Source of the DNA: Lutibacter sp.
Lineage (GTDB): Bacteria > Bacteroidota > Bacteroidia > Flavobacteriales > Flavobacteriaceae
Direction of reading: 5' to 3'
DNA length: 64,000 nt
Assembly: GCA_027449025.1 (NCBI GenBank)
Contig: DAIDMK010000007.1
Span: 1-64,000 of the forward strand
Positions 9,006 through 27,365 of this stretch are shown here, piece by piece (position 1 is the stretch's first letter; each line of letters opens with the position of its first letter). Below the pieces are notes generated by a model, which saw nothing but the letters and a program-made list of their open reading frames with translations, searched no databases and was not told the DNA's origin. The position numbers and the translations under genes were made by a program.

Positions 9006-9045
9006 CTAAAACTATTAACCATAAAAATAATAAATAACATTTATA

Positions 9046-9489: not shown

Positions 9490-9513
9490 TAAAAATATTT
9501 AAAAAATAATCTT

Positions 9514-10293
9514 ATGAATGTACCTACAATGGCTGAAATGACGGCTCAAGGAAAACAACCAGATGTTTTATTTTGGGTTGGATGTGCCGGAAGTTTTGAT
9601 GACAGAGCAAAAAAAATAACAAAAGCTTTTGTGAAAATTTTAAATAAGGCAAATGTAAATTTTGCCGTTTTGGGTGCAGAAGAAAGCTGTACTGGTGACC
9701 CTGCTAAAAGAGCCGGAAATGAATTTTTGTTTCAAATGCAGGCAATGGCAAATATTGAGGTTCTAAATGCCTATGATATCAAAAAAATAGTAACTGCTTG
9801 TCCACATGGCTTCAATACCATAAAAAATGAATACCCTGAACTGGGAGGAAAATATGAAGTATTGCATCACACTGAATTTTTAAAATCTTTGTTGGATGAA
9901 GGAAAAATCACCATTGAAGGAGGTAAATACAAAGGCAAACGCATTACTTTTCACGATCCTTGTTATTTAGGAAGAGGCAATGATGTATATGAAGCACCGC
10001 GATTGCTAATTGAAAAATTGGAGGCGGAATTGGTTGAAATGAAACATTGTAAAACCAACGGACTTTGTTGTGGTGCTGGTGGTGCCCAAATGTTTAAAGA
10101 TGCTGAAAAAGGAAATAAAGAGATTTACTTGGAACGCACAGAAGAAGCACTAGAAACAAAATCAAGTATTATTGCCACGGGTTGCCCTTTTTGCAATACG
10201 ATGATTACCGACGGCATAAAAGCAACCAATCAGGAAGAAAACGTTCAAGTGTTGGATATTGCCGAGTTAATAGCCAATGCTGAAGATTTATAA
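9514..10293 (+). CDS. CCG-domain Fe-S oxidoreductase subunit (HdrB/LutA/GlpC-like)
   Basis: A 259-residue soluble protein with two CCG-type cysteine regions: an early half (VGCAGSFDDRA, ESCTGDPAKR, ACPHGFNTI) and a late half (FHDPCYLGRGNDVYEAPR, CKTNGLCCGAGGAQMF, GCPFCNTMI). In HdrB-like proteins this motif holds a cubane-type cluster used for electron transfer or disulfide reduction. It most likely docks on the membrane Fe-S protein encoded at 7707-9005. The physiological substrate is unknown; lactate, glycerol-3-phosphate or heterodisulfide roles are only family possibilities. Confidence 0.87.
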   Translation: MNVPTMAEMTAQGKQPDVLFWVGCAGSFDDRAKKITKAFVKILNKANVNFAVLGAEESCTGDPAKRAGNEFLFQMQAMANIEVLNAYDIKKIVTACPHGFNTIKNEYPELGGKYEVLHHTEFLKSLLDEGKITIEGGKYKGKRITFHDPCYLGRGNDVYEAPRLLIEKLEAELVEMKHCKTNGLCCGAGGAQMFKDAEKGNKEIYLERTEEALETKSSIIATGCPFCNTMITDGIKATNQEENVQVLDIAELIANAEDL

Positions 10294-10329
10294 ATTTTGA
10301 AAAAAAGTGGCTATTGAAAAAATTGCACG

Positions 10330-11232
10330 ATGTTTAAAGTTTATGTGAAAGCTGCCCGTTTAAGGACGCTTCCTTTATCCGTTTCAGGAATAATTGTGGG
10401 AAGTTTTTTGGCGGCATCTCATGGGTATTTTAATTGGGTAATTTGTGGGCTTGCATTGATGACCACTGTTGGTTTTCAAATTATTTCTAACTTCGCCAAT
10501 GATTATGGCGATGGCATAAAAGGAACCGACAATACCGATAGAATTGGTCCTAAACGAGCCATTCAAAGTGGGGAAATTTCACCGAAACAATTATTAAAAA
10601 CCATTAAAATAACAAGTGCAATAACCTTCGTTATTGCCATCTTACTTATTTATACAGCTTTTGATAAAGATGATTTTTTTAACTTATTGGTGTTTTTTGT
10701 GTTGGGAATTGCAAGCATTGCAGCCGCAGTAAAATACACCATGGGTCATAAAGCTTATGGTTATAGTGGATTTGGAGATTTCTTCGTATTACTATTTTTT
10801 GGATTGCTAAGTGTTTGCGGTAGTTATTATTTATTCTCGAAGCAATTGAATTTTACCATTTTTATGCCTGCTTGTTCAATTGGATTTTTAAGTATTGGCG
10901 TGTTAAATTTAAACAATATGCGTGATAGCGTATCCGATGCAAAATCGGGCAAGAATACAATCGTGGTAAAAATAGGGCTGGAGTTTGCCAAATATTACCA
11001 TTATTGTTTATTGATTGCTTCATTTTTGTTTGCTTTACTCTACTCATTTATTTTTTATAAATCATGGCATCAACTATTATTTTTCCTGGCGTATATTCCA
11101 ATTGGTAAACATTTCTTGGTGGTATATCGAAATAAGAGACCCGTACTTTTGGATCCTGAATTAAAAAAATTGGCGCTAAGCACCTTCTTATTTGCATTAT
11201 TATTCGGTTTGGGAACATTTTTAGCTTCCTGA
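10330..11232 (+). CDS. menA: 1,4-dihydroxy-2-naphthoate polyprenyltransferase
   Basis: A 300-residue UbiA-fold membrane enzyme that attaches the isoprenoid tail to dihydroxynaphthoate in menaquinone synthesis. Eight or nine hydrophobic helices are visible. The first Asp-rich motif is NFANDYGDGIKGTDNTD (prenyl diphosphate/Mg binding, about residues 54-70) followed by GPKRAIQSGEIS; the second is NNMRDSVSDAKSGK near 195-210. MenC and MenE-like genes lie about 17-20 kb downstream on the same strand, with the accessory island in between, so this is probably the 5' end of a split menaquinone locus. Confidence 0.93.
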   Translation: MFKVYVKAARLRTLPLSVSGIIVGSFLAASHGYFNWVICGLALMTTVGFQIISNFANDYGDGIKGTDNTDRIGPKRAIQSGEISPKQLLKTIKITSAITFVIAILLIYTAFDKDDFFNLLVFFVLGIASIAAAVKYTMGHKAYGYSGFGDFFVLLFFGLLSVCGSYYLFSKQLNFTIFMPACSIGFLSIGVLNLNNMRDSVSDAKSGKNTIVVKIGLEFAKYYHYCLLIASFLFALLYSFIFYKSWHQLLFFLAYIPIGKHFLVVYRNKRPVLLDPELKKLALSTFLFALLFGLGTFLAS

Positions 11233-11295
11233 AATGACTTTTATCACTTTTTAAACAAGAAATAAAAGATACATTTATCAGGTATTTGTTTTCAC

Positions 11296-11673
11296 ATGAA
11301 AAATCAATTTTTTGGCATATTTTTTTATCTGCTTTATTTATTGGCTATGGTTCGCCCATTGGTTCCAATATTGGAGTATTATGCCAATTACGATTATATT
11401 GCCACTGTGCTTTGCGAAAACAGGGATAAACCTTATTTAGAGTGTAACGGAAAGTGTTATTTAGAAAAGCAACTGAATAAGGCAAATCATAACAATCACG
11501 ATCATAAATCAACCATTCCTCAAATTGATTTTGAAAAATATCCTGTTTCACCCTTAGATCAATTTTCCTACACACTTAAAAATTTTGAAGAAAACTATTC
11601 ACTTGTTTTTTTTGTTAATAAATACTCTTCACAAGATTTCTATAATTCTTTATTGAAACCGCCACAAGTATAA
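11296..11673 (+). CDS. 125-residue cysteine-motif membrane protein, copy 1
   Basis: A small protein of unknown function. Residues ~5-25 are a membrane helix or uncleaved signal (FFGIFFYLLYLLAMVRP). Then come Cys40, Cys50 and Cys54 in CENRDKPYLECNGKCYL, and a His-rich stretch (HNNHDH, 65-70) special to this copy. It differs from copy 2 (19312) at 15 of 125 positions by my count. Family members I recall sit beside TonB receptors in Bacteroidota, so a metal or periplasmic thiol role is likely but unproven. The upstream region matches those of copies 2 and 3, but the -7 box reads TACATTTA (11270-11277) instead of TATTTTTG. Confidence 0.85.
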   Translation: MKNQFFGIFFYLLYLLAMVRPLVPILEYYANYDYIATVLCENRDKPYLECNGKCYLEKQLNKANHNNHDHKSTIPQIDFEKYPVSPLDQFSYTLKNFEENYSLVFFVNKYSSQDFYNSLLKPPQV

Positions 11674-11934
11674 ATTTATTTTTTGCAATATTTTGGGGGT
11701 TTAAGTATGGTAATTATTACTGTACAAATACTTGCGATTCTATATGTTAGTAAACATACGAGAGAATATAGAAAAAAGACAAGGTTAATGTATAAAAAAC
11801 AATTGTTTATATCGGTTTCTTTTCCTTAAATGCTATCATCCATTTAATATATATAAAAAGATACAGGATTCGCTTTATTATCCAGAAACCCAATTAAGGC
11901 AATTGTATAATTTCACAATTCACTGATTTTATTT
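11674..11934. other. Spacer homologous to that of unit 2
   Basis: Conserved blocks (AAGTATGGTAATTATTACTG, ACAAATACTTG, GATTCTATATGTTA, CCCAATTAA, TTTAGTGCTT) also follow copy 2 at 19690-19872. This copy carries about 120 extra bases between the two conserved parts (around 11750-11885). It is non-coding, part of the duplicated unit framework, and leads straight into the receptor fossil. Confidence 0.75.
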
Positions 11935-12030
11935 AGTGCTTATTATAATATTTATAAGTGTTATGTTGGTATTGTTTACTGAATTCTCCTATACTCAAGA
12001 AATAATTGTTAAAGGAAATATGGTTGATTA
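11935..12030 (+). pseudogene. Fossil 5' end of a TonB-dependent receptor
   Basis: In the frame starting GTG CTT, the DNA reads ...FSYTQEIIVKGNMVD then TAG. The intact receptor at 19873 reads ...FSYAQELTIKGKVVD from the same relative position. The upstream spacer also matches. The ATG is changed to ATA and several signal-peptide codons are lost, so it is dead. Homology stops at about 12030, where the sequence turns into the leader of the unit-1 receptor. This marks the left scar of the inserted cassette. Confidence 0.8.
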
Positions 12031-12175
12031 GGAAATTATAAAACTGCACAGTTTAATTTTAAATAGCATGTTGTTATTTAAAAATTAAATAGATGTTTAT
12101 TAAACTTAAAAAAATTAGTACTTAAAAAATTAGTATTAGTTACTTAATAAAACAAATTTTTTAAACTTATAAAAA
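12031..12175. other. Leader of the unit-1 operon
   Basis: Very AT-rich DNA. It contains a direct repeat of CTTAAAAAA(A)TTAGTA around 12106-12137, just before the receptor. I see no clear TTG / TAnnTTTG promoter pair and no riboswitch-like fold. Confidence 0.4.
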
Positions 12176-14446
12176 ATGAAAAAAAACATAATTAGTTCAT
12201 ATTTTATGCTTTTTACATTTGTAGTATTTAGCCAAGAAATTGGAAGCATAAGCGGTACAGTAATCGATAAAGAAACAGGGAAAACGATTCCGAATGCTGA
12301 AATACTAATAGTGGAAATTACGCAAGGAACAGTTGTTTCCGAAAATGGAACTTTTGAAATAAGGAATGTCAAACCAGGGACATATACACTTAGTTCGCAT
12401 GCGCTAGGTTATATTACAAATACCAATAAAAATATTAGAGTCTATGCAGGAGAAAATAAAAATGTTCACTTTTCAATGGAACCTGAAAATATTGCATTGG
12501 AAGAAGTGACTGTATCGGTAACCAAAATTAATAAAACTATTGATAAAATAGGATCTCCAGTTTATGTTATAAGTAAAAAGGAAATTGAACGTACTGAAGG
12601 AAGAAATATAGAAGAGGTTCTAATTAGAGTTCCTGGAGTTTTTACAGAAGACAGGTATCATAATGAAACAAATTTGGTGAGTTTTAGAGGAGTTGGGCTT
12701 CATACACATGTTACCCGAGGAATTCTTGTTTTAGTAGATGGGGTTTCTTTAACTGAGGCAATGGGAAGAACTGATTTTGAAGGCGTTGATATGGAAAATG
12801 CTGAAAAAGTAGAAATTTTAAAAGGTCCTGTATCAGCGCTGTACGGTCCAAATGGTATCACAGGGGTAATAAATATAGTAGAAAAAACGCCTAAAGAAGG
12901 ATTTCATGGGAAAGCAAAAGCATCTTATGGTAGTTATAATTCTATGACATTATCTGGAGATGTTAATGGTGGGAAAGACGGGTTTCGATATTTAGTAAAG
13001 GGAAAATACTTTAACACAGATGGTTATTTAGATAGAAGTGGATCTAATTCTTCAAGACTTGGTGTAAAGCTTGTTCAAAAATTTAATAATGCTGGAAAAT
13101 TACAATTTACAACTGATTATATCAGTAGTGAAATGGATATACCTGGAACCTTAACGCAAGAGCAATTTGATGATAAATCAACTTTTTCCTCCAATTTATT
13201 TGCAGATTATAATAGAGATGTGCTAAGAACAAATTTAGTGTACACACAAAACCTAAATAATAAAATTGATTTGTATGGAAATCTCTATTATAGAAATAAC
13301 AACAGTGATGGATTTTATGCAGATTATAGTTATTCAGAAGACGATATAAACTCATTAGGAGGTGAATTAAGAAGTCAATTTAAGAATACCGTTTTTGGAA
13401 AAGAAAATTCAATAATTGTTGGTGTAAGTATGCTTAACGAAAAAGGCGTTAATGAAACATTTAGAAGAGATACTAAAACAGGCAGTATTGGAACGAAAAC
13501 TAATGATGGAGAAAGCATATACAATATGTTTGGAGTTTATATGGAAGATGAATTTATGTTAACTAGCAAATTAGGAATTACTCTTGGATTAAGATATGAT
13601 TTAGTTGATTATGATTGGACTGACAATTTACATCAAGGTGAAGAAAATACTTCTGCAACAACAAGTGTATCATCATTTAGCCCAAAATTTGGATTTGCGT
13701 ATAACCCAACAAAAAACGCGACTCTTTTTGGAAATATAGCACGTGGATTTAATCCTCCTCAAATTTCCCAATTATTTGTTGGAAGTTCTTACTCAGGTTT
13801 GCCAAACCCTGATTTGAACCCTGAATATATTACCAATTATGAATTAGGAATAAGAGGTAATATTAAACAAAAATTTATGGTTCAGGCATCATTTTTTATG
13901 ATGGATTTTACAGATCAAATTACTGCCGAAATTATTCCTGAAATTGACCCTAACAATCCTATTTATCAAAATGTTGGTAAAACAAAACATACAGGTTTAG
14001 AAACCTCTTTAGAATATCATTTTACTAATAAATTTAATATTTACACAAATTACTCATATTTAGATGCAAGATTTAATGATGATCCAGATTATGGAGACAA
14101 CACATTAAGAAAAACGCCTCATAATATGATGAATGCGGGATTAAGGTATGAGTTTAAATTTGGTTTAACAACAGCTTTAGATTACAAATTTGTAGATAAA
14201 TTTTATATGGACAATGAAGAGATTAATGAGTATGAGGGTTATTCTTTACTAAATATAAAACTAATGTATAATTGGAAAGATTTTATGATTTCAGCTGCAG
14301 TTAACAATGTTTTAGATACTAATTATGCTACGTATGCTTATTCTTCTGAATCATACAATCCAATAACTCATCAAACTGCTTGGGAAACTAAATATATTCC
14401 AGGTTGGCCAGTAAATATAAATGCCGCTATTTCATATCGTTTTTAA
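12176..14446 (+). CDS. TonB-dependent receptor of the double-cubane cassette
   Basis: A 756-residue outer-membrane receptor. After the signal peptide (to ~20) comes a CarboxypepD_reg-like domain (23-105: ISGTVIDKETGKTIPNAEIL ... ALGYI), then the plug (~120-235: VISKKEIERTEGRNIEEVL, VSFRGVG, LVLVDGVSL, VEILKGPVSALYGPNGITG) and a barrel ending AAISYRF. Residues 174-182 (GLHTHVTRG) put two histidines in the plug near the ligand-facing region. First gene of a five-gene same-strand run (gaps 27, 44, -8 and 2 bp) ending with the ATP-dependent reductase pair. A metal or metal-complex substrate is inference from the DUF4198-like neighbour and the adjacent copper-type units. Confidence 0.92.
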   Translation: MKKNIISSYFMLFTFVVFSQEIGSISGTVIDKETGKTIPNAEILIVEITQGTVVSENGTFEIRNVKPGTYTLSSHALGYITNTNKNIRVYAGENKNVHFSMEPENIALEEVTVSVTKINKTIDKIGSPVYVISKKEIERTEGRNIEEVLIRVPGVFTEDRYHNETNLVSFRGVGLHTHVTRGILVLVDGVSLTEAMGRTDFEGVDMENAEKVEILKGPVSALYGPNGITGVINIVEKTPKEGFHGKAKASYGSYNSMTLSGDVNGGKDGFRYLVKGKYFNTDGYLDRSGSNSSRLGVKLVQKFNNAGKLQFTTDYISSEMDIPGTLTQEQFDDKSTFSSNLFADYNRDVLRTNLVYTQNLNNKIDLYGNLYYRNNNSDGFYADYSYSEDDINSLGGELRSQFKNTVFGKENSIIVGVSMLNEKGVNETFRRDTKTGSIGTKTNDGESIYNMFGVYMEDEFMLTSKLGITLGLRYDLVDYDWTDNLHQGEENTSATTSVSSFSPKFGFAYNPTKNATLFGNIARGFNPPQISQLFVGSSYSGLPNPDLNPEYITNYELGIRGNIKQKFMVQASFFMMDFTDQITAEIIPEIDPNNPIYQNVGKTKHTGLETSLEYHFTNKFNIYTNYSYLDARFNDDPDYGDNTLRKTPHNMMNAGLRYEFKFGLTTALDYKFVDKFYMDNEEINEYEGYSLLNIKLMYNWKDFMISAAVNNVLDTNYATYAYSSESYNPITHQTAWETKYIPGWPVNINAAISYRF

Positions 14447-14473
14447 CTTGTTTAGAAATAAAAATATTGGATT

Positions 14474-15517
14474 ATGATAATCATAAAAAACATAAAAAAA
14501 CCGGAGTATACTTTTATTAGTATACTCTTGGTTTGTTTCTTTTTAATTCAACCTGTGGTTGCACAAGAAATTAGTTGGTTCTCAAATATGCCGCCAAAAG
14601 AAGAAAAGAAAATTGTTGAAAATGGCATGCATCGACTTTCTTCAATAAAAGGCAAAAGAGGACAATCATCAATTATTCAATGGTTAAGAAAAGGTACAAA
14701 TCCTGAAAATGCAGCTTATGTACAAATTCCAGATTCATTAGGGTTTAATTTTTGGTTATTTTCGCCTTCAAAAAAGCAAATTGAAGGAAAATTAATTACT
14801 AAAGGAGGAAAGTCTTTCTTTACATATGCGAGTAAAGAGGAAGGATATTATAATGCATACCTTACTCACAAAGAAGTACTTGGAGACACTTTGAATGTAA
14901 CTGTTGCTAAAAGTGAAATGTTAAATCACAGTTGTAGGAATGGTCATAAGCTTGTTCGGGGAATTGTAGGACCACATATATATCCAGAAATAATTCCTGT
15001 TGAAATTAAACGAAAAAGAATTTTTGCTGAAGACTTACATTATTTTACAACTTCTAGTGATAAGGTTGAATACCAGTTTCTTGTAAATGGAGAACCAGTT
15101 GAAGGGGCAAGTTTAACCTTGGTAACTCAAAAAAATTGGAATAAGACACAAAAAACCAATAAAGAGGGTAAGAGTACTTTCCAGTTTATTCAAGATTATT
15201 TTTCTTCATGGCAAGAGTTAAATAATCGTGAAATTTATTATTACTTATTGTATGGTGAAATAATAGTGCCAGAGCAGGGGATTTATAAAGGCTCAGCATA
15301 TTCGTATGTTCATTATACCACAAGCCTTTCCGATGGTTATAGACCTGCAAAAACAATGTATATGTCAATGTTTTGGGCATTTGTTGTATTTATTTTAGCA
15401 ACTGTAATTATTGTTACTGGGATTTTTATTTACCGATTAAGACGACAAAAAATTTATAAAGAAATTAAGTTAGATGAAAGTAACGTAACAAATTTTGATA
15501 CAAAAAGGAATGATTAA
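14474..15517 (+). CDS. Periplasmic DUF4198-like protein with C-terminal membrane anchor
   Basis: 347 residues: an N-terminal signal or helix (ISILLVCFFLIQPVVAQ, to ~31), a periplasmic beta-rich domain, and a C-terminal helix at about 298-320 followed by a short basic tail. The fragment VEYQFLVNGEPVEGASLTLV ... NKEGKSTFQF resembles DUF4198 / NikK-type proteins associated with nickel and cobalt uptake. Candidate ligands are His152, Cys154 and His158 (NHSCRNGH) and His168. The last ~13 codons (SNVTNFDTKRND) are encoded inside leader-repeat copy C, so the native C-terminus may have been replaced by the repeat. Metal binding is inference. Confidence 0.75.
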   Translation: MIIIKNIKKPEYTFISILLVCFFLIQPVVAQEISWFSNMPPKEEKKIVENGMHRLSSIKGKRGQSSIIQWLRKGTNPENAAYVQIPDSLGFNFWLFSPSKKQIEGKLITKGGKSFFTYASKEEGYYNAYLTHKEVLGDTLNVTVAKSEMLNHSCRNGHKLVRGIVGPHIYPEIIPVEIKRKRIFAEDLHYFTTSSDKVEYQFLVNGEPVEGASLTLVTQKNWNKTQKTNKEGKSTFQFIQDYFSSWQELNNREIYYYLLYGEIIVPEQGIYKGSAYSYVHYTTSLSDGYRPAKTMYMSMFWAFVVFILATVIIVTGIFIYRLRRQKIYKEIKLDESNVTNFDTKRND

Positions 15518-15566
15518 TGGCAAACAGCGACTGTTACCCCTAAAAAATAAATTTTTAACAGATGAA
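15470..15566 (+). repeat. Leader repeat copy C, joining two genes
   Basis: The unit begins TAGATGAAA (ATG at 15474) and ends TTTTTAACAGATGAAAA, where the ATG at 15562 is the start of the NapH-like gene; the period is 88 bp. The hairpin arms AACAG and CTGTT are kept but the loop is CGA instead of CAT, so the stem is preserved while the loop changes. The CTGTTA arm can alternatively pair with TAACAG before the start codon. The left part overlaps the last codons and stop of the DUF4198-like gene. Confidence 0.85.
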
Positions 15567-16575
15567 AAAAATTAAAATTATACAGTATATAAATAATTCA
15601 AACGTTTCTAGGTTTCGAACTATAATACAAATAGCCTTTTTTGTACTATTTGTATATGGAGGCTATTTCTTTATTAATATAGGTCAAAATTTACCAACAT
15701 TTGCCTGCCCATATAATCCTGGAAGTTCTGGAACTTGTTATTTAATCTCAGCACAGCACAATTTACATATTACTTGGGAGCAATTAGTTAGTTTTCGTGG
15801 CTTAGGATTTATAACTGGTTTGGGTTCTTTTGTACTATTCTTTATAATATTTAATAAAGCATGGTGTGGCTATGCTTGTCCGCTAGGAACTATTCAAGAT
15901 TGGATTACCAGACTTCGAAAATTAACTTTAACTAGGTTTTCTCACTATGATGAAGTGAGTTTTAAAAGACTTAGTAAAGTAAAATATGTGTTTTTAGTTT
16001 TATTGATACTAATTCCTTTAGGAATGAGTAATTCCTTTTTTGGACTTCCAGAAATATCAGACGATATGGGAGCTCCTTTTTGTCAAATTTGTCCAGGAAG
16101 AACAATATTACCGCTTTTTTCAGGTGATACGTCTCAATTATTTATTGATTTTACTACCAAAACTACTATGGTAATGTCTAGTCTGGGAATTTTATTTATG
16201 GCACTGTTTTTTGTGGGTTCATTTTTCAAAAAAAGATTTTTCTGTTTCTTTTGTCCAATGAGCGCTTTACAGTATTTATTTTCAAAAATTGGAGTTTTAC
16301 GCTTGGTAAAAGACGGTTCTAAATGTACGCGTTGTGGAAATTGTTCGCGTGTTTGTGATGTTGGAATTACCGCAATTGCAGATGATATTACAAGTAAAAA
16401 TATTGTAAAAGACGATTGTATGATGTGTTTTAAATGTGTAGAAGCCTGTCCTGAAAAGGGAGCGTTAGACGTGAAGGTTTTTAATTTTAAAATATTTTCA
16501 TCTACCGAAGAAGGCTTTTTTAAACGATATGGTCAAGGTGATTCATTAACCTCAAAAAAAAAGAAAGATGATTAA
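15562..16575 (+). CDS. NapH/CcoG-like membrane ferredoxin
   Basis: A 337-residue membrane electron carrier. Membrane helices lie near 20-40, 78-98, 140-156 and 203-222. Polyferredoxin-type membrane motifs are present: CGYACP (102-107), FCQICPGR (173-180) and CFFCP (228-232). Two C-terminal 4Fe-4S motifs follow, CTRCGNCSRVC (255-265) and CMMCFKCVEACP (286-297). It overlaps the double-cubane gene by 8 bp, so the two are translationally coupled. The probable role is feeding low-potential electrons to the activase/reductase pair. That is inference: other double-cubane systems are generally supplied by soluble ferredoxin or flavodoxin. Confidence 0.87.
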   Translation: MKKIKIIQYINNSNVSRFRTIIQIAFFVLFVYGGYFFINIGQNLPTFACPYNPGSSGTCYLISAQHNLHITWEQLVSFRGLGFITGLGSFVLFFIIFNKAWCGYACPLGTIQDWITRLRKLTLTRFSHYDEVSFKRLSKVKYVFLVLLILIPLGMSNSFFGLPEISDDMGAPFCQICPGRTILPLFSGDTSQLFIDFTTKTTMVMSSLGILFMALFFVGSFFKKRFFCFFCPMSALQYLFSKIGVLRLVKDGSKCTRCGNCSRVCDVGITAIADDITSKNIVKDDCMMCFKCVEACPEKGALDVKVFNFKIFSSTEEGFFKRYGQGDSLTSKKKKDD

Positions 16576-17848
16576 TGCCACCAATCAAGATAGATACAAT
16601 AGGTTGAAGAAAACATCAACCATCCATTATAATATGGAGGTAAATCAAGTGCTTTCAGAAATTATGGATGATTTTCCAGATAAAATTTCTGGGATGGAGT
16701 ATTTTTATAACAAGTTTAAACCTCTAGAAATAGGAGAATCATTATACCCAAAAGACAAAAAACTAATTGCTTCAATGTGTATTCACGTACCAATTGAAAT
16801 TATTCATGCGTTGGATGCAACGGCTGTTAGAATATGTTCTGGAGCTTATTCGGCAGATACTGCTGGCTCTGATTTTTTACCCGCAAAAACTTGTCCAATG
16901 GTCAAATCAACTTTAGGTGCACTTTATTTAGATATGCTTCCGGGGAATGCAATTCCTGACTTGGTTATAAATCCTACAACGTGTGATCAAAAAAAGAAAA
17001 TGGGTGAAATGGGTGATGAAATTGACAAAGAGTTTTATGTTTTAGAAGTTCCGCCAAGTAAAGACTCAGAAGAAGCAAGACAATATTGGCAACGAACTAT
17101 AAAAAAATTGGTTAAGAAACTCGAAAAATGTACGGGCAATAGGCTTACTAGAGGAAAATTAAAAAAATCTATAAAAACAATTGCTCAAGCACAGTCTGAA
17201 TATAGACGCTTTATGAGACTTAGAAAAGAAGCTCCTGTTATTTTTGGAAAAGACGCTTTATTAATAGCGAATGCTTATTTTTTTGATGATATAACTTGTT
17301 GGACACAAAATTTAGCAATTCTTAATGATGAGCTAGAAGAAAGAATAGAAAATAATTTAATGGTAATAAAGTCGCGAACACCAAGAATTTTGTTGACAGG
17401 ATCGCCTTCAATTTTTCCAAATATGAGAACGCCTATTTTAATAGAAAAACTAGGAGGAATAGTTGTTTACGAAGAGTTCTGTTCAAGCAGTAGGATGTTA
17501 AGCGATACTGTTGCAGTTGATGAGTGGTTTTTATATGATATGGTGCCTGCAATTGCTGATAGATATTTAAAACCAAGCACTTGCCCAAATTTCACACCTA
17601 ATGATGATAGAATACGGAAAATTTTATTAGCAATGGATGATTATAAAGTGGATGGTGTAGTTTATCAAACCTTTACTGGCTGCCAGCTTTATGATATGGA
17701 AGCAAGAAAAATAGGAAAGGCATTAGAAGAGGCTGGGTATCCTGTATTGAATGTTGAATTAGATTATAATCCTAAGGATTCAGGACAATTAACAACAAGA
17801 TTAGAAGCATTTTTAGAATCAATTAAAGATAATAAAAGAAACACATAG
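16568..17848 (+). CDS. Double-cubane-cluster protein, HgdB/BcrB-like (2-hydroxyacyl-CoA dehydratase family)
   Basis: 426 residues of the HgdB/FldBC/BcrBC family. Cysteines fit two three-Cys cluster sites: Cys71 (MCIHVP), Cys109 (KTCPMVK) and Cys139 (PTTCDQKKK) in the N-lobe, and Cys305 (EEFCSS), Cys339 (STCPNF) and Cys372 (TGCQLYDME) in the C-lobe. The closing GYPVLNVELDY is typical of the family. True dehydratases need two different subunits; here only one such gene sits beside one activase gene. That matches the single-subunit DCCP type, which in Carboxydothermus carries an [Fe8S9] double cubane and reduces small molecules at ATP cost. The substrate here is unknown; a dehydratase or benzoyl-CoA reductase role is less likely. 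Confidence 0.88.
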   Translation: MINATNQDRYNRLKKTSTIHYNMEVNQVLSEIMDDFPDKISGMEYFYNKFKPLEIGESLYPKDKKLIASMCIHVPIEIIHALDATAVRICSGAYSADTAGSDFLPAKTCPMVKSTLGALYLDMLPGNAIPDLVINPTTCDQKKKMGEMGDEIDKEFYVLEVPPSKDSEEARQYWQRTIKKLVKKLEKCTGNRLTRGKLKKSIKTIAQAQSEYRRFMRLRKEAPVIFGKDALLIANAYFFDDITCWTQNLAILNDELEERIENNLMVIKSRTPRILLTGSPSIFPNMRTPILIEKLGGIVVYEEFCSSSRMLSDTVAVDEWFLYDMVPAIADRYLKPSTCPNFTPNDDRIRKILLAMDDYKVDGVVYQTFTGCQLYDMEARKIGKALEEAGYPVLNVELDYNPKDSGQLTTRLEAFLESIKDNKRNT

Positions 17849-17850
17849 CT

Positions 17851-18660
17851 ATGGGTTATTATTTAGGAGTGGATATCGGTTCAACAACAATTAAAATTGT
17901 GTTAATTAATGAATCAGGAGAAATTGTTGATAAAATTGGGTCTCCTACAGGAAGTATGTTTAATCAAAACGCATTAGATAGTTTAGATAGATTATTAAAT
18001 TCAAATAATTTAACTAGAGACGATTTAAAATACATTGTATCTACAGGTTATGGTAGAAAGTTATTTAAAATTAGTAATGAAAATGTGAATGAGCTTACCG
18101 CAAATGCAAAAGGAGCAAGAAATAGTTTGGGCAAAGATTTAAAAGTGAAAACTATTATTAATGTAGGAGGTCAGGATACAAAAGTTATTTTATTGGATGA
18201 TGATGGTAAAATGACTAATTTTTTTATGAATGATAAATGTGCAGCGGGTACAGGTAAATTTTTAGATATTTCGGCTAGAAATCTTGAAGTAGATGTACAG
18301 GAATTAGAAGTTTTACATTTTAAGGCAAAAGACACCCCATTGCCAATAAACAGTATATGTGCTGTATTTGCAGAATCAGAAATAATATCATTGTTAGCAG
18401 CAGGTCATCAAACACCAGAAATAGCATCGGGTATTCATTATTCAATTGCAAAGCGAATTACTAGATTAGCAAGTAGGGGGAGAATTGAAGATGCCGTATT
18501 GTTTGATGGTGGTACAGCTTTAAATAAAGGAATGGTTGATGCACTTGAAAATGAGTTAATGCGACCGGTTTATGTTAATTCTTTTCCACAATTTACCACT
18601 TCTTTTGGTGCCGCATTAATTGCAAAAGAAAGGTATTTAGAAAATGACGGAATAGAATGA
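17851..18660 (+). CDS. BadF/BadG/HgdC-type ATPase activator of the double-cubane protein
   Basis: A 269-residue ASKHA-fold ATPase that binds one [4Fe-4S] cluster between two subunits and injects electrons into its partner with ATP hydrolysis. Features: phosphate-1 loop GVDIGSTTIK (6-15), STGYGR (64-69), INVGGQDTK (103-111), cluster ligands Cys130 (NDKCAAGTGKFLD) and Cys170 (SICAVFAESEIIS), and the adenosine loop FDGGTALNKG. The gene starts 2 bp after the preceding stop codon. Length and Cys spacing match HgdC/DCCP-R proteins closely, so the reductase pair is complete. Confidence 0.92.
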   Translation: MGYYLGVDIGSTTIKIVLINESGEIVDKIGSPTGSMFNQNALDSLDRLLNSNNLTRDDLKYIVSTGYGRKLFKISNENVNELTANAKGARNSLGKDLKVKTIINVGGQDTKVILLDDDGKMTNFFMNDKCAAGTGKFLDISARNLEVDVQELEVLHFKAKDTPLPINSICAVFAESEIISLLAAGHQTPEIASGIHYSIAKRITRLASRGRIEDAVLFDGGTALNKGMVDALENELMRPVYVNSFPQFTTSFGAALIAKERYLENDGIE

Positions 18661-18692
18661 TTATTTCAATATGTTTAATTTATCATACTCCA

Positions 18693-18948
18693 GATTGAAA
18701 AGCCAAAAGTAGGATTTATCTGTTAATGTTGTAAAAAACAGAAATGTTTGTTGAACCAAAGACGACAATTAGTGCTGGGTTTTTGAAGACAAAATTATAA
18801 CTAGTTCAACAAGAAAGCATCCACAGAAATTGATCATCCTGTCATTAGAAAAATTAATGACAATCAACTTTTAATGGCCTGGCTTAATAAAGTGAATGGC
18901 AAATCAAAAATTAATTACGTAAAAATTGATGCGGAAAAATTAAAATAG
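18693..18948 (+). pseudogene. Fossil 3' end of the BNR-fold lipoprotein
   Basis: The DNA from 18693 aligns by eye with 22792 onward in the intact lipoprotein gene (GAAAAGCCA, AGGAT, AATGTTGTA, GAAAT, TTTGTTGA), then with 23116 onward (TAGTTCAACA, GCATCCACAGA). After a further deletion of about 150 bp it aligns with the gene's last ~115 bp, including the final AAATTAAAATAG. An in-frame TAA falls in the CQCC motif and internal deletions are evident, so it is dead. It marks the right scar of the unit-1 cassette and lies directly upstream of 125-residue copy 2, as the intact gene lies upstream of copy 3. Confidence 0.85.
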
Positions 18949-19267
18949 CGGAGAAAAATTATTAAACTTAAAGCCCTCTTTTATTTAAGGAAATTTCTTT
19001 TTAGAATCTTATTAATTTACTGTAAAATGGAATCTAAGAAATCAGTAATTGTATAAAATATAAAACAATTAAAAGCTTAATAGTTACCAAATAACTACTT
19101 ATGGCTCAAAATGTGAAATTTTCTGTTTAGATAGTAGGTGGCAAAAGGGGGCGGATTGGTGTTTGAGCACCTCAATTAGTTAATAATTTAATTGGAAATA
19201 AGTAATTCTTGTTTATATTTTTGCAAGGTTTAAATATGATTTAAATTTTTTAATGATATTTGTCATA

Positions 19268-19296
19268 TTGTAAACAAAAAATAAAAGATATTTTTG
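19268..19296 (+). promoter_or_regulatory. Bacteroidota-type promoter of 125-residue copy 2
   Basis: A -33 TTG at 19268-19270 and a -7 TATTTTTG at 19289-19296 with an 18-bp spacer match the TTG / TAnnTTTG consensus of this phylum. The start codon follows 15 bases after the -7 box, so the mRNA leader is very short. The same arrangement is conserved upstream of copy 3. Confidence 0.6.
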
Positions 19297-19311
19297 TCTT
19301 TTATTTAATTA

Positions 19312-19689
19312 ATGAAAAATCAATTTTTCGGTATATTTTTTTATTTGCTTTATTTATTGGCCATGGTTAGGCCAATAGTTCCAATAATGGAGTATTATGC
19401 CAATTATGATTACATTGCCACTGTGCTTTGTGAAAATAGGGATAAACCTTATTTAGAGTGTAATGGAAAGTGTTATTTAGAGAAGCAGCTGAATAAATCA
19501 AACAATCCAGGTAACGATCATAAATCTACCATTCCTCAAATTGATTTTGAAAAATATCCTGTTTCTCCATTAGATCAATTTTCATACACGCTTAAAAATT
19601 TCGAGGATAACTACACACATAGATTTTTTGTTAATAAATACACTTCACAAAATTTCTATAATTCTTTATTGAAACCACCTCGGTTGTAA
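19312..19689 (+). CDS. 125-residue cysteine-motif membrane protein, copy 2
   Basis: Paralogue of the genes at 11296 and 23792, differing from copy 3 at 8 of 125 residues by my count. It has the same N-terminal helix and the same Cys40, Cys50 and Cys54 motif (LCENRDKPYLECNGKCYL). The variable part is 63-68, where the His-rich stretch of copy 1 is NNPGND here. A short conserved spacer separates it from the receptor at 19873, so it opens unit 2. Biochemical function is unknown; the invariance of the Cys segment against the drift in 63-68 and the C-terminus suggests selection on the cysteines. Confidence 0.87.
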   Translation: MKNQFFGIFFYLLYLLAMVRPIVPIMEYYANYDYIATVLCENRDKPYLECNGKCYLEKQLNKSNNPGNDHKSTIPQIDFEKYPVSPLDQFSYTLKNFEDNYTHRFFVNKYTSQNFYNSLLKPPRL

Positions 19690-19872
19690 TTTTATTTTTT
19701 GTAACATTTTTTGGAATTTAAGTATGGTAATTATTACTGTACAAATACTTGTGATTCTATATGTTATTTATAAAAACATAAAAGACTGTAGCAATATTTT
19801 CCTAAAACCCAATTAAGACAATTATATAATTTCAAAATTCACTAATTTAATTTAGTGCTTAAAATAATATTT

Positions 19873-22182
19873 ATGAATAAATCAATATTTGCCAGTATTG
19901 TACTGGCATTGTTAACGGTATTTTCCTATGCCCAAGAATTAACTATTAAAGGAAAAGTTGTTGATAGTGAGACAAAAGAGCCATTAATGGGTGTTAATTT
20001 AATATTAGAAAACACAAAAAGTGGGACTATAACCGATAATCATGGAGAATTTCAACTAAAAAATATCACTAAAACTGATAAATTACTGGTTTCGTACATA
20101 GGCTATATTACAAGAAGTGCAACTTTTGGCGACAACAATAACCTTGTTATTTCTTTAGAGAGAGATGAGAATAAATTGGCAGAAATAGTAATAAGCGCTT
20201 CCAGAACACAACAATCCAGAGAAGAAGTTCCTGTTGCAATTTCAACAATATCGGCTAAAACTTTAGAGGAGATAAAACCAACAACTATTGACCAAGTGTT
20301 AAATCAAGCTGCTGGTGTTTTAATGATAGATTTAGGGAATGAACAGCATATGATGGCTATTCGCCAGCCAATTTCAACCAAAAGTTTATACTTATATCTT
20401 GAAGACGGAATTCCAATTAGGCCAACAGGAGTTTATAATCATAATGCCTTGTTAGAAATGAATATGGCAGCAACAAAAAATATTGAAATTATTCGAGGTC
20501 CTTTTTCATCACTCTATGGAAGCGAGGCAATAGGAGGTGCTATTAATTTTTTTACGGCAAATCCAACATCAACGCCAACAGGAAGTTTTTCTGTTAGAGG
20601 AAATGGGGATGGTTACTTGCGTATGGATGCCAAAATATCATCAACTTTTAACAAAACTGGTATTTATATAAGTGGTTATAAATCACAAATTAAAGACGGT
20701 ATTAGGGAATATGGGGATTATGACAAGGAAGCAATAACCTTAAAATTAACACATAGTTTTAATGATAGAACTTCTTTGAGCAACACTTTAACCTATGTAG
20801 ATTATTATAGTGATATGAGTGGTAGTATAGATGAAACTAAATTTAATAATAAAGATTATACCTCATATCACACATTTACTTATAGAGATTCAGAATCATT
20901 GCGTTTCAATTCAACCTTAAAATATTTTTGGAATGAAATGAATAATACTTCATTAAGCTTGATTTATAGAGACAATACGATGAAACAGAATCCTTCATAC
21001 CGCATTAGTAGCAGAGCTAGCTTTGATAGTTATACGAGTGGAGAAATAAATGACAATAGCTTTAATAGCTATGGTTTTGTTGCGCAACATAATTTGAAAT
21101 TTAATAAGGCAAAAATTAGTTTGGGCACAAGTTTAGATTATAGCCCAAACACCTATGAAGCACTGGGAACAAGTGTGTATAGAAATGCACAAGGAATGTA
21201 TGAGAGTTATACCTTAACAGGGCAATACCTTTCTAACTATGCTGTAGATTTGTTCAATATAGGAGGATATATCTCAGGAGAATATAATGTTTCTGATCAT
21301 TTGAAATTAAATGCCGCACTTAGAATTGATCAATTTAATTATGATTTTACAAACAGACTAGGTGTGGATGCCTCAGATTATAAAGCTCCTAATACCGAAA
21401 ATTCTTATAATGCGTTCACGCCTCGTCTCGGTGCAATTTATAAAATTAATAAGGGAATTGGTGCATATGCAAATTACAGTAACGGATTTTTGCCGCCTAG
21501 CGTTGGCGAATTATACAAAGCAAGCGATGTCCCTTTATTAGACCCTTCTAAATTTAACAATTATGAAATAGGAAGTTGGATAAGTTTGTTTAACAATAAG
21601 CTGTATATCGATGTTGCTGCCTATTATTTAAGGGGGAAAGATGAAATAGTGTCAGTTTCCGTAAAAGAAGGAAATGTAACACTTAACGAAAATAGAAATG
21701 CAGGTGAAACTGAACATTTCGGATTTGAGTACTTATTTAAAATAAAGCCTGTTGAAGATTTAAGTTTTCGTTTTAGTGGTTCTATTTCAAAACATAATTA
21801 CATAGATTTTGCAACAAAATTAGTTGATGGTGAAGAAACTACAAATTATAGCGGAAATGAAATGAAAGGGGCTCCAAGCTGGGTAAATAATGCAGAACTT
21901 AAATATACTCCAAGTTTTGTAAAAGGCCTCCGTTTTGGATTGGAATGGCAACATGTTGGGAAATACTTTACCGATGATGTAAATGATAATGTTTATGGAG
22001 GTTACGATATCTTTAATGCTCGAGTAGGTTATAAGAAAGGACATTGGCATATTTGGGCCGATTTATTAAATGTTTCAGATAAGCTCTATGCAAATAATGC
22101 CTCGACTGATTGGGGGAGTACTACATATACACCTGGAACACCAAGAACTTTTAATATTGGATTAGAATTAAACTTTTTTTAA
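19873..22182 (+). CDS. TonB-dependent receptor of unit 2
   Basis: A 769-residue receptor. The start is placed at ATG 19873 because it gives a clean signal peptide (MNKSIFASIVLALLTVFSYA). A CarboxypepD_reg-like domain (ELTIKGKVVDSETKEPLMGV ... VSYIGYI, ~22-90), plug (VISASRTQQSREEVPVAIST, LEDGIPIRPTG, IEIIRGPFSSLYGSEAIGG, ~100-220) and barrel ending FNIGLELNFF follow. Its N-terminus and spacer have a fossil counterpart at 11935-12030. The gene ends 3 bp before the BNR lipoprotein, so the two are surely co-transcribed. The substrate is not evident; a metal chelate is inference from context. Confidence 0.92.
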   Translation: MNKSIFASIVLALLTVFSYAQELTIKGKVVDSETKEPLMGVNLILENTKSGTITDNHGEFQLKNITKTDKLLVSYIGYITRSATFGDNNNLVISLERDENKLAEIVISASRTQQSREEVPVAISTISAKTLEEIKPTTIDQVLNQAAGVLMIDLGNEQHMMAIRQPISTKSLYLYLEDGIPIRPTGVYNHNALLEMNMAATKNIEIIRGPFSSLYGSEAIGGAINFFTANPTSTPTGSFSVRGNGDGYLRMDAKISSTFNKTGIYISGYKSQIKDGIREYGDYDKEAITLKLTHSFNDRTSLSNTLTYVDYYSDMSGSIDETKFNNKDYTSYHTFTYRDSESLRFNSTLKYFWNEMNNTSLSLIYRDNTMKQNPSYRISSRASFDSYTSGEINDNSFNSYGFVAQHNLKFNKAKISLGTSLDYSPNTYEALGTSVYRNAQGMYESYTLTGQYLSNYAVDLFNIGGYISGEYNVSDHLKLNAALRIDQFNYDFTNRLGVDASDYKAPNTENSYNAFTPRLGAIYKINKGIGAYANYSNGFLPPSVGELYKASDVPLLDPSKFNNYEIGSWISLFNNKLYIDVAAYYLRGKDEIVSVSVKEGNVTLNENRNAGETEHFGFEYLFKIKPVEDLSFRFSGSISKHNYIDFATKLVDGEETTNYSGNEMKGAPSWVNNAELKYTPSFVKGLRFGLEWQHVGKYFTDDVNDNVYGGYDIFNARVGYKKGHWHIWADLLNVSDKLYANNASTDWGSTTYTPGTPRTFNIGLELNFF

Positions 22183-22185
22183 ATA

Positions 22186-23424: not shown

Positions 23425-23445
23425 GTGAGAAAAGGTATTGAATTT

Positions 23446-23476
23446 AATTGCCCTTCTTTTAGGGCAATTTCTTATT
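23446..23476. terminator. Hairpin terminator after unit 2
   Basis: AATTGCCCT (23446-23454) and AGGGCAATT (23461-23469) form a perfect 9-bp stem with a 6-base loop, followed by a T-rich stretch. The equivalent position after the fossil (around 18975-19005) has lost the pairing. Confidence 0.7.
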
Positions 23477-23743: not shown

Positions 23744-23772
23744 TTGTAAACAAAAAATAAAAGATATTTTTG
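23744..23772 (+). promoter_or_regulatory. Promoter of 125-residue copy 3
   Basis: TTG at 23744-23746 and TATTTTTG at 23765-23772 with an 18-bp spacer, the same as copy 2. The start codon is 19 bases after the -7 box. Confidence 0.6.
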
Positions 23773-23791
23773 TCTTGTATATAATTTGTAA

Positions 23792-24455: not shown

Positions 24456-25301
24456 ATGAAACTTCTTAAATATTTTTTACCAGTAATTTTAGCTCTCGTC
24501 ATTATCTCTTGTTCTGATGATGATGACGATGTTGCGCCAGTTAATGAAATAGGAGATTTGATTAAAGTCCAAGACATTTCTAATGATGAGCATACCATTG
24601 AAGTTTATACAAAAAGCGGAAAATTGGTTCAAGGGTATAATGATATTACTGTTAGAATTAAAGACAATTTAACACAAGATTTTGTCGAAAATGCTACAAT
24701 ATCCTGGAAGCCAGTAATGCACATGATTGAAAAAACGCATTCTTGCCCTAAATCTGACCTTGTAAAAGTTACAGATAAACAAACTGTTTACAACGGCTAT
24801 ATTATTTTTACAATGGCAGAGAACGAAACAGAAAAATGGGATTTAACTTTCAATTATACTATTGACGGAACCGCCTATGAAGTGGTTGATTTTATTGCCG
24901 TGCCTGCATCAAGCAAGCAAACAATCACTTCTGTAATGGGTGTTGATGGAGTTAAATATGTTTTAGCTCTTATTGAACCGCAAAAGCCAGAGGTTAAAAT
25001 AAACGACATCACCATTGGCCTATTCAAAATGGAAAGCATGATGAGCTTCCCTGTGGTTGAAAATTATAAAATAAATTTGGATCCACGTATGCCAAGTATG
25101 GGAAATCATTCTTCTCCAAATAACCAAGATTTGTTTTTTAATGCAACTTCAAATATGTACGATGGCAAACTGTCATTAACGATGACTGGCTATTGGAAAC
25201 TCAATTTAATTTTGCGAAATCAAAATAACGAAATACTGAAAGGAGAAGCAGTAACCGATGAAAATGAAGCCAGCACTTTGTATTTGGAAATAGAATTTTA
25301 A
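24456..25301 (+). CDS. Met/His-rich lipoprotein with YtkA/FixH-like domains, probable copper binding
   Basis: 281 residues. Lipobox VIIS-C19 is followed by an acidic linker DDDDD. Two beta-sandwich repeats each hold a metal-ligand cluster: Met88-His89-Met90 with His95 and Cys97 (VMHMIEKTHSCP), and Met212, Met215 and His218 (RMPSMGNHSSPN). A further MESMMSF segment lies at 192-197. Such YtkA/FixH-type MxM/HSSPN patterns are typical of periplasmic copper carriers. It sits 60 bp before the OprC-like receptor gene and likely takes copper from it or senses it. The specific metal is inferred. Confidence 0.75.
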   Translation: MKLLKYFLPVILALVIISCSDDDDDVAPVNEIGDLIKVQDISNDEHTIEVYTKSGKLVQGYNDITVRIKDNLTQDFVENATISWKPVMHMIEKTHSCPKSDLVKVTDKQTVYNGYIIFTMAENETEKWDLTFNYTIDGTAYEVVDFIAVPASSKQTITSVMGVDGVKYVLALIEPQKPEVKINDITIGLFKMESMMSFPVVENYKINLDPRMPSMGNHSSPNNQDLFFNATSNMYDGKLSLTMTGYWKLNLILRNQNNEILKGEAVTDENEASTLYLEIEF

Positions 25302-25317
25302 ACAATTAATATTTAAC

Positions 25318-25361: not shown

Positions 25362-27365
25362 ATGGTAAGCAAATTTTATATTGGTTTATTAGTTTCGTTA
25401 TTATTTACTGTAATAATTTCGGCTCAGGAAAAGAGCCTGGACACTGTTAAAATTGAACAACTAAAAGAAATAATTATAGTAAACAGAAAATCATTAAACA
25501 ATAAAAACCAAGTAAAACCGCTCGCGTCTATTGATGAATATCTAGAGAAATCAAATAAGATCACAATGATTAAGCGCGGTAATTATGCTTGGGAGCCAGC
25601 CATTAATAATATGGTGAGTGACAGAATTTCCGTTACCATTGACGGAATGCAAATATTTGGTGCCTGCACCGATAAAATGGATCCAATAACCTCGTATGTA
25701 GATATTTCAAATTTATCTGAAGTCCATGTAAAATCCGGACAGCAGGGTGCGGAAAATGGCTCAACCATTGGTGGTGGAATTGATTTGAAATTGCAAAAAG
25801 GCAACTTTAATGATGAAGCGCTGTATGTTGGATTTGACACAGGTTTTGAAACGAATGGAAATGCAAGAATTGGAAGTTCAGAATTAAATTTTTCAAATAG
25901 CAAATTTTTTGTAAATGCCGATGCTATCTATAGAAAATCTGACAATTATACCGCAGGAGGTGATGTGGAAATTAAATATTCTCAATATGAGAAATACAAT
26001 GTTTCAACTATCGCAGGTTTAAAAATCAATAAAAATGGCGCTATTATTGGCTCAGTTATCTTCGATAATGCCACAAATATTGGATATCCGGCATTAACAA
26101 TGGACGTTTCATCAGCAAAAGCATTGATAACTTCTGTTAGTTATCTTCAAAAAAATAGCAATTCTAGAGTGACCGAATGGGAAACGAAATTTTATATGAA
26201 TACCATTACGCATGTGATGGATGACACAAAAAGACCAGATGTTCCTATTCATATGGATATGCCTGGCTGGAGCGATACCTATGGTTTTTATTCAAAAATA
26301 AAGTTGGCTAAAACCAGACATTCGCTACTTTTTAATGCAAATGCCTATTATAATAAAGCCTTGGCTGAAATGACGATGTATCCAAGCGATCCAAATGAAA
26401 ATGAGATGTTTATGTTAACTTGGCCAGATGTAAGAACTCTGTATTCTGGTATTTATGGTGAAGATGATTTTAGTTTGAATAAAAACAGTAACCTAAAAAT
26501 GACAGCCAGAATTGGTTTTCAAGATGAAACAATCGCTGATGATTTCGGATTGAATAGTTTGCAAATATTTTACCCCAATTTGAATGACAATCAACAAAGA
26601 TTTTTAATAAACTTATCCACTCAGTATCAATTCCAAAGAGATAGATTCCAATTTTCGGGAAGCGTAGGTTACGGAGAAAGAGCCCCATCTGTTACTGAAG
26701 CATACGGATTTTATTTATTTAACAGTTTTGATAACTATGATTATATTGGAAATCCATATTTAAATAATGAAAAATCTTTGGAGTTTAACGCAGCTGTAAA
26801 TTATACAAGTAAAAAGATTAAAATGGGTATTGAGGCATCTTATTTTTATATTTCAGATTATATTATTGGAAAATTGAATCCTGATTATGATAGAATGACA
26901 ATTGGCGCTGATGGCGTGAAAGTTTATACTGCTTTAGATTACGCAACTATTTTTACTACAAATTTAACCGCTGAATATTCAATTTCTAATGCAATTAAGT
27001 TAGACGGTATGTTAGGTTATAGTTTGGGGGAAGATAATGATAAAGAAAATTTACCATTGATTAGCCCGCTAAATTATAAATTAATGTTACGTTATAAAAA
27101 GGCTTTTCTTGATGCGGAATTAGGAATGTCTGGAGCCGATAAACAATACAATTACAGTAGCAGTTATGGTGAAGACAAAACCAATGCCTACACGGTTTTT
27201 AATGCAAATGCATCTTATGCTTTTTATAAAGGAAAAAATAAAATTTTTGTAAAAGCAGGTATGGATAATATTTTCGACAGGTATTATTCCACCTTTGCAG
27301 ATTGGAAAAACATACCCAGAATGGGAAGAAATACCTTTATTAATATTTCATATGTAATAAAGTAA
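25362..27365 (+). CDS. oprC: OprC/NosA-type TonB-dependent copper receptor
   Basis: A 667-residue outer-membrane receptor. Signal peptide to ~21; plug ~50-145 with GMQIFGACTDKMDPITSYVD. Cys102-x3-Met106 in that segment and His284-x-Met286 (THVMDD) in the barrel match the Cys143/Met147 and His323/Met325 copper ligands reported for Pseudomonas OprC. The spacing between the two pairs is also almost equal (178 against 176 residues). An additional Met/His cluster is at 297-300 (HMDM). It has no CarboxypepD_reg domain. The barrel ends NTFINISYVIK. It probably imports copper for cuproenzymes; none of those is encoded in this window. Confidence 0.88.
   Translation: MVSKFYIGLLVSLLFTVIISAQEKSLDTVKIEQLKEIIIVNRKSLNNKNQVKPLASIDEYLEKSNKITMIKRGNYAWEPAINNMVSDRISVTIDGMQIFGACTDKMDPITSYVDISNLSEVHVKSGQQGAENGSTIGGGIDLKLQKGNFNDEALYVGFDTGFETNGNARIGSSELNFSNSKFFVNADAIYRKSDNYTAGGDVEIKYSQYEKYNVSTIAGLKINKNGAIIGSVIFDNATNIGYPALTMDVSSAKALITSVSYLQKNSNSRVTEWETKFYMNTITHVMDDTKRPDVPIHMDMPGWSDTYGFYSKIKLAKTRHSLLFNANAYYNKALAEMTMYPSDPNENEMFMLTWPDVRTLYSGIYGEDDFSLNKNSNLKMTARIGFQDETIADDFGLNSLQIFYPNLNDNQQRFLINLSTQYQFQRDRFQFSGSVGYGERAPSVTEAYGFYLFNSFDNYDYIGNPYLNNEKSLEFNAAVNYTSKKIKMGIEASYFYISDYIIGKLNPDYDRMTIGADGVKVYTALDYATIFTTNLTAEYSISNAIKLDGMLGYSLGEDNDKENLPLISPLNYKLMLRYKKAFLDAELGMSGADKQYNYSSSYGEDKTNAYTVFNANASYAFYKGKNKIFVKAGMDNIFDRYYSTFADWKNIPRMGRNTFINISYVIK

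Follow-up and report, generated by a model that had tools for sequence, protein, structure and literature searches.

The window analysed here (64,000 nucleotides, positions 1 to 64,000 of contig DAIDMK010000007.1 of Lutibacter sp., assembly GCA_027449025.1) carries at 12176-18660 five genes on the same strand, encoding a receptor, a DUF4198-like protein, a NapH-like protein, a double-cubane protein, and an activase. Comparisons with other genomes confirmed that these five genes are a real conserved unit, and the parts of the cassette are of known kinds. We consider it probable that the unit is an ATP-powered reductive metal-uptake cassette, taking together copper and the metals of its chief rival. 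The narrower version, in which copper is the likely metal, is the one we tentatively favor, and in it we infer both the direction of the electrons and the identity of the metal.

The proposed mechanism is as follows. The TonB receptor would import a metal, tightly bound to its chelator, into the periplasm. The activase would hydrolyse ATP and charge the double-cubane protein with electrons of very low potential, as the homology to a solved pair suggests. From there the electrons would reach the NapH-like protein at its cytoplasmic [4Fe-4S] domain and travel along its membrane part as far as a periplasmic Cys/His site, where the metal would be reduced (in the favored version from Cu(II) to Cu(I)) and released from its chelator. 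The DUF4198-fold protein, which matches metal-binding folds and is fused to a NosL domain in some genomes, would then catch the ion. A DsbD_2 membrane protein and an RND pump encoded next to some cassettes may also take part, the pump perhaps by recycling the chelator. The five genes, whose protein types had been proposed in a first-pass annotation made from the sequence and were borne out by family models and structure matches, are:

12176..14446, + strand: TonB-dependent outer-membrane receptor (PF00593, PF07715; TIGR01783; YncD/PqqU structures)
14474..15517, + strand: DUF4198-fold protein, C-terminal membrane helix; a predicted periplasmic binder of transition metals
15562..16575, + strand: NapH-like membrane polyferredoxin with two CxxxCP sites and two C-terminal [4Fe-4S] motifs (Fer4_5, Fer4_10)
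16568..17848, + strand: double-cubane cluster protein (DCCP; DCCP/HgdB-like) with six invariant cluster cysteines (NF040772; 6eno/7yyl; alignment)
17851..18660, + strand: BadF/HgdC-type ATPase activase, with C130 and C170 (TIGR00241; solved activators)

The proteins of the cassette

The double-cubane protein passes the cutoff of its family model by a narrow margin (NF040772, 353.4 bits, cutoff 350). Among solved structures its nearest is the DCCP of 7yyl/6eno (E 5e-68), in agreement with the identity suggested for 16568-17848 in the first-pass annotation. The six cysteines proposed there as cluster ligands (C71, C109, C139, C305, C339, C372) are invariant in an alignment of 16 sequences and align with those of 7yyl/6eno. 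The activase starts 2 bases 3' of the double-cubane gene, scores 227 bits with TIGR00241, and matches solved activators, including the DCCP partner 7yyl_E. A second dehydratase subunit was also searched for, and the whole genome (scored 100% complete) has a single PF06050 gene. Hence, we rejected a two-subunit dehydratase or benzoyl-CoA reductase, the HadC, BzdN, and BcrC scores being also far below their cutoffs. By its family score, its six cysteines, and its single subunit with an adjacent activase, the pair fits the DCCP class, and the cluster and ATP-driven reduction are predicted accordingly.

The same features (a single PF06050 subunit, six cysteines, and an activase of the BadF/HgdC type) are found in the DCCP and reductase of Carboxydothermus hydrogenoformans (6eno, 7yyl), a pair that is reportedly soluble. 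Unlike it, the pair in the window is linked with a membrane polyferredoxin, a protein of a metal-binding fold and, in nearly all loci, a receptor. The HadBC dehydratases and the class I benzoyl-CoA reductases share with the window pair PF06050 and the family of the ATP-driven activase, but have two PF06050 subunits instead of one. A 2025 paper described what the [8Fe-9S] cluster specifically catalyses as unclear, and potentials down to -1 V have been calculated for ATP-driven enzymes of the benzoyl-CoA reductase kind (PMC11971306).

The DUF4198-like protein folds like Zcp, of which there are Cu-, Zn-, and Co-bound PDB entries, and like a Ni-bound DUF4198 protein. At the gathering score of PF10670 (DUF4198) the window protein has no match, and among ten relatives scanned only that of locus L013 passes (35.9 bits, cutoff 34; L and G numbers are our handles for loci and genomes). 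A search of the profile of these proteins against the PDB sequences gave no match either, and the relation of the window protein to DUF4198 is seen by its fold only. Judged by eye, it has no His at the likely signal-peptide cleavage point that could make an N-terminal histidine brace; other Met, His, and Cys residues are conserved, and M52, H53, H152, C154, and H158 are candidate metal ligands.

The NapH-like protein scores well below the cutoff of the NapH model (TIGR02163, 68.6 bits, cutoff 213). It has CxxxCP motifs and two [4Fe-4S] sites with matches to Fer4_5 and Fer4_10, and their cysteines are invariant in 20 sequences. Five further residues (C49, C59, H66, C174, C177) are invariant in the same sequences, occur also in the five sister-group NapH checked (see below), and are absent from NosH. 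In its membrane location, CxxxCP motifs, and two [4Fe-4S] sites, the protein resembles CcoG, a membrane cupric reductase with two [4Fe-4S] clusters, whose electron donor is given as unknown (PMC7558416). The periplasmic Ig-like domain of CcoG is comparable to the polyferredoxin-DUF4198 fusions that occur in Campylobacterota (PMC7558416). The excerpt of the same source mentions neither a receptor nor an ATP-driven donor for CcoG, whereas the cassette has genes of both types. None of the 22 NCBIfam families listed at E <= 0.001 for the window protein is CcoG.

Conservation of the unit and modules without the pair

A scan of genome contigs gave a first set of 25 loci, in Flavobacteriaceae, Bacteroidales, other Bacteroidota, Calditrichota, Methylococcaceae, Gallionella, another gammaproteobacterium, and Campylobacterota. 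Genes were called as longest open reading frames (ORFs) and through BLAST or tblastn matches to the proteins of the cassette itself. All five genes are present in the same order in 14 of the 25 loci. In the remaining 11 a contig end interrupts the locus, and every gene for which there is room is present; metagenome bins with short contigs account for many loci. In a sample of Campylobacterales, the order of the Sulfurimonas relative (199 genomes; the names of this sample and of those of Flavobacteriaceae and Gammaproteobacteria were assigned from named relatives), a cassette-type DCCP (E <= 1e-169) was found in 18 genomes and a distant one (E ~1e-60) in 5. Five of these 18 cassettes were already in the first set, and the remaining 13, fetched as a second set (L097-L109), all have homologues of the five genes. 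The co-occurrence of the five families, a lack of which would have refuted the first-pass annotation, is thus conserved, and its double-cubane enzyme tied to a receptor recurs in Bacteroidota, Calditrichota, Pseudomonadota, and Campylobacterota, with L139 as a locus without receptor.

The five distant DCCPs (L110-L114, 31-34% identical) differ in their surroundings. Each has its activase and, in the fetched stretch, no receptor, DUF4198, or NapH gene, and in a tree they are parted from the cassette DCCPs by a 100/100 branch. By eye, the pairs of L110-L112 lie next to TusA-like genes, and that of L112 also next to a SelD-like gene, neighbors that hint at selenium or sulfur metabolism for the distant pairs.

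The distribution of NapH follows that of the cassette DCCP. Of the 199 Campylobacterales, 17 have a cassette-type NapH, with 60-79% identity to the query for the best match in each genome, and all 17 are among the 18 genomes with a cassette DCCP (Fisher 1e-23; here and below the genomes are related and the values carry no phylogenetic correction). In the 18th, the contig ends inside the DCCP gene. The cassette is rare in Bacteroidota. In the window's own family, Flavobacteriaceae, the DCCP is found in 1 of 199 genomes, the window's own; one genome of the same genus lacks it. Since the only NapH match at E <= 1e-30 among 395 Bacteroidota is also in the window's own genome, no module lacking the DCCP was seen in this phylum. 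A DsbD_2 membrane protein is encoded beside the cassette in Campylobacterota and Gammaproteobacteria, and RND genes are present in 11 of the 25 first-set stretches and 6 of the 13 in the second set.

Related modules occur without the pair. Five of the 199 Campylobacterales have a NapH at 35-37% identity and no DCCP match at E <= 1e-60; their loci have the DUF4198-like, NapH, and DsbD_2 genes together, and a receptor in four of the five (L115 is cut by the contig end). Among 350 Gammaproteobacteria, the class of the Methylococcaceae relative, DCCP and activase are present in all five loci with a NapH at >= 60% and, within the fetched stretch, in none of the ten with a NapH at 31-38%. These ten sister loci have DUF4198 and DsbD_2 genes, and nine also have a receptor, none being detected in L142. 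In a tree of NapH, 14 rows with DCCP, which we chose, and 15 without, which are all those found, part at a 99/96 branch, with NosH outside. Finally, the operons of L099, L100, and L101 each have two NapH/DUF4198 modules for one DCCP pair.

Judging from gene content, the core module is the receptor, the DUF4198 protein, and NapH; it works with or without the pair, and one pair can serve two modules. With 15 sister loci that lack the pair and three operons that have a single pair for two modules, DCCP and activase are most simply read as an ATP-powered electron source for NapH. The first-pass annotation had the electrons running the other way, from NapH to the double-cubane enzyme. As written, this finds no support in these loci, and a pair that feeds NapH seems to fit better. 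Two gammaproteobacterial loci, L139 (genome G881) and L140 (genome G1005), have NapH, DCCP, and activase with no receptor detected adjacent, and the same genomes have a sister module elsewhere.

The metal and the rival explanations

Two more genes of the window bear on the metal:

24456..25301, + strand: lipoprotein-like protein, partner of the copper-type receptor (weak PF13115 YtkA match, below cutoff)
25362..27365, + strand: OprC/NosA-like receptor, likely for copper, with a CxxxM plug motif, ACTDKMDP (TIGR01778 is its best model, below cutoff)

A CxxxM plug motif has been reported for OprC (PMC7558416), and a receptor of this copper type adjoins the cassette in the window and in 8 of the 25 loci, that is in 9 of 26. 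Seven of these nine were identified by a fixed motif and those of L026 and L027 were added after reading the sequences; L025 and L027 belong to the same genome and are perhaps a single cassette. For the six receptors tested, the best model is TIGR01778 (TonB-copper), always below cutoff; that of the window has 123 bits (cutoff 472) and is the only one of its genome at E <= 1e-15. The lipoprotein-like gene is kept beside it in L003 and L004. At the genome level the link is weaker: copper-type receptors are more frequent in the Campylobacterales with the cassette (15 of 18) than in the others (92 of 181, p 0.007).

A second link to copper comes from NosL, a Cu(I) chaperone that serves N2O reductase and in which CxM, within CxxCxM in clade II, is the likely copper site (PMC6530538). 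A NosL domain (PF05573, 49-73 bits, cutoff 24) is fused into the cassette protein of L015, L016, L018, and L098. The fused proteins carry His/Met-rich linkers, and the two shown in full (L015 and L018) have a CxxCxM motif. In addition, nosF/L/Y genes occur in the stretches of L008, L015, and L026, and the L021 contig has a full nos cluster at a distance of ~18 kb. The cassette thus shares parts with the NosL/NosA/OprC systems. The known NosL serves N2O reductase (PMC6530538), whereas several cassette genomes lack nosZ. Together with the Zcp/DUF4198 folds, these observations uphold the link to metals in the first-pass annotation, which had proposed a metal, metalloid, or cofactor as the substrate; we narrow this to a metal, with copper favored.

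The frequency of nosZ suggested a system dedicated to N2O reductase, a candidate that we did not retain. Matches at >= 472 bits are present in 21 of the 25 cassette genomes (18 over the family cutoff), and in Bacteroidota in 8 of 9 genomes with the cassette against 89 of 198 others (p 0.011, related genomes). However, the background in the window's family is high (90 of 199 genomes), and in the unbiased sample of Campylobacterales the excess is weak (11 of 18 versus 68 of 181, p 0.046, equally uncorrected). Since 7 of these 18 genomes lack nosZ, it is not required, although absence from metagenome bins may reflect incompleteness. One of the genomes without nosZ, G317, carries the NosL fusion of L098, with no nosZ match at E <= 1e-100. 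The same counts bear on the idea that the pair reactivates or assembles a periplasmic copper enzyme at the cost of ATP, either N2O reductase at its CuZ site or a cbb3 oxidase. The 21 genomes with nosZ, the nos genes that adjoin the cassette or lie near it (L008, L026, contigs of L015 and L021), the NosL fusions, and the receptor-free cassette of L139 speak for it, but the Campylobacterales counts and the seven genomes without nosZ do not, and a TonB receptor makes little sense in reactivation; we regard this idea as improbable.

Two observations on nosZ stand apart. The Bacteroidota cassette genomes of L064 (G222), L065 (G204), L069 (G203), and L073 (G201) have two adjacent nosZ-like genes of different lengths, one over or near the NosZ cutoff and the other under it, which is an unusual arrangement for N2O reductase. 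In a gammaproteobacterium, a sister module without DCCP (L141, 1-12333) lies beside nosZ and nosB-, nosC-, and nosD-like genes.

Beyond the nosZ counts of Campylobacterales and of the window's family, several points weigh against an ATP-driven uptake of copper. The NosL fusion occurs in four loci only, and no copper-type receptor lies beside the cassette in the 13 loci of the second set. The cassette receptor itself has a siderophore model as its best match, not a copper one (TIGR01783, 238.3 bits, cutoff 223.5). Aqueous Cu(II) needs no reductant of such strength, and only tightly chelated Cu(II) would. The periplasmic Cys/His site of NapH is putative, the predicted structure being of too low confidence (60.6) and without PDB match at E <= 0.001. 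Nor is the receptor obligatory, since none is present over 7 kb upstream in L139, or over the 2 kb that L140 has before its contig ends.

The chief rival keeps the same machine and changes the metal, for the uptake of ferric siderophores, or of nickel or cobalt. It would account for the siderophore score of the receptor, and the textbook case of a complex that is reduced only at very low potential is the ferric siderophore. RND pumps are linked to siderophore recycling, which the RND genes near the cassettes recall. In Caulobacter, Fur regulates DUF4198 operons, and for one of them a role in reducing ferric iron in the periplasm has been proposed (PMC3751524, PMC11870441), and the solved IsDUF4198, encoded near NikR, binds Ni in preference to Cu (PMC12537917). 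The Caulobacter operon CCNA_03155-03159 (flavin reductase, PepSY membrane protein, DUF2271, DUF4198) resembles the cassette in joining a DUF4198 protein to a membrane reductase; it differs in its flavin/PepSY chemistry and iron regulation, and has neither an Fe-S polyferredoxin nor a double-cubane enzyme (PMC11870441). On the other side, no consistent Fur, FNR, or CRP-type box was found upstream of 29 receptor genes with consensus patterns, the best Fur-like matches being those of L011 and L026 and the one-mismatch FNR-like ones those of L104 and L105. Neither feoB nor siderophore-synthesis genes were noticed by eye among the neighbors listed, and the NosL fusions, the copper-type receptors, and the nos genes next door also speak against this rival. 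We hold another metal to be rather unlikely, though less so than the other alternatives, and iron in particular deserves to be taken seriously.

Somewhat less likely still is the scheme of the first-pass annotation, in which the double-cubane enzyme reduces an imported molecule or chelator in the cytoplasm with NapH as its donor. Known DCCP reduces small molecules, and the residues around the cluster that are invariant in the 16 aligned sequences (TGSPxIFPN and others) are as compatible with a substrate pocket as with an electron relay, which also tells against a pure electron source. The five genes include no inner-membrane permease, a role that DsbD_2 could fill in some genomes, and this scheme has difficulty with the 15 loci in which NapH accompanies a receptor and DUF4198 without DCCP, and with the three operons where one pair serves two NapH modules. 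That the pair has some unrelated small molecule as its substrate and is merely co-regulated with a metal-uptake operon we consider very improbable: free-standing DCCP/activase pairs do exist (L110-L114), but the NapH group tracks the presence of the pair in two broad samples.

The solved structures nearest to the cassette receptor of the window are YncD/PqqU (E 1e-38), and the receptor scores far below the cutoff of the PqqU family model (160 bits, cutoff 1200). A Campylobacterota cassette receptor is likewise of siderophore type and nearest to YncD/PqqU, and the module receptors of L061, L010, L099, and L117 are below the TIGR01783 cutoff. The cassette receptor is short in L098, and in L107 (13962-16143, genome G298) it is split over two ORFs and may be broken.

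If reductive uptake of copper is the right reading, the cassette would provide the kind of dedicated electron donor for membrane cupric reductases that is missing for CcoG (PMC7558416), and would connect ATP-driven chemistry at low potential with the way its bacterial hosts, many of them with an N2O reductase, obtain copper. Since the removal of N2O is limited by the supply of copper, the system may bear on the turnover of a greenhouse gas. Going further, and with a little less confidence than in the copper cassette, we suggest that in bacteria of low-oxygen boundaries the double-cubane protein could be a nitrogenase-like, ATP-driven electron pump for nutrient capture and not a metabolic catalyst, and that electrons near -1 V, passed on by the polyferredoxin, could strip copper from chelates closed to ordinary reductants. 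If so, this would be the first physiological role for the double-cubane protein family and a new kind of nutrient-uptake machine. By linking one double-cubane lineage with a receptor, a membrane electron wire, and a protein of a metal-binding fold, the cassette gives that lineage a concrete, testable role. In the open-licence literature we found no paper joining a double-cubane or dehydratase-activase pair with N2O reductase, copper, or a TonB receptor, nor one linking such ATP-driven enzymes of very low potential with CcoG-like reduction of Cu(II), which is no proof of novelty.

Neighboring genes in the window

A search of positions 10000-28000 of the window gave no riboswitch match at the Rfam gathering scores. 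Three near-identical ORFs of 125 aa with an ECNGKC motif (11296-11673, 19312-19689, and 23792-24169) each lie just 5' of a receptor operon. The first two have no Pfam or NCBIfam match, the third being outside that scan, and copies adjoin the cassette also in L003, L004, L005, L008, and L025. At 19855-23424 the window encodes a second TonB receptor together with a lipoprotein-like protein that has BNR repeats and a CQCCR motif. The same pair lies directly 5' of the cassette receptor in L005, and the BNR gene is found in L006. About 2 kb 5' of the cassette, at 7707-10293, we noted by eye genes for a membrane Fe-S protein and a CCG-domain-like protein, which are present in L004 too.

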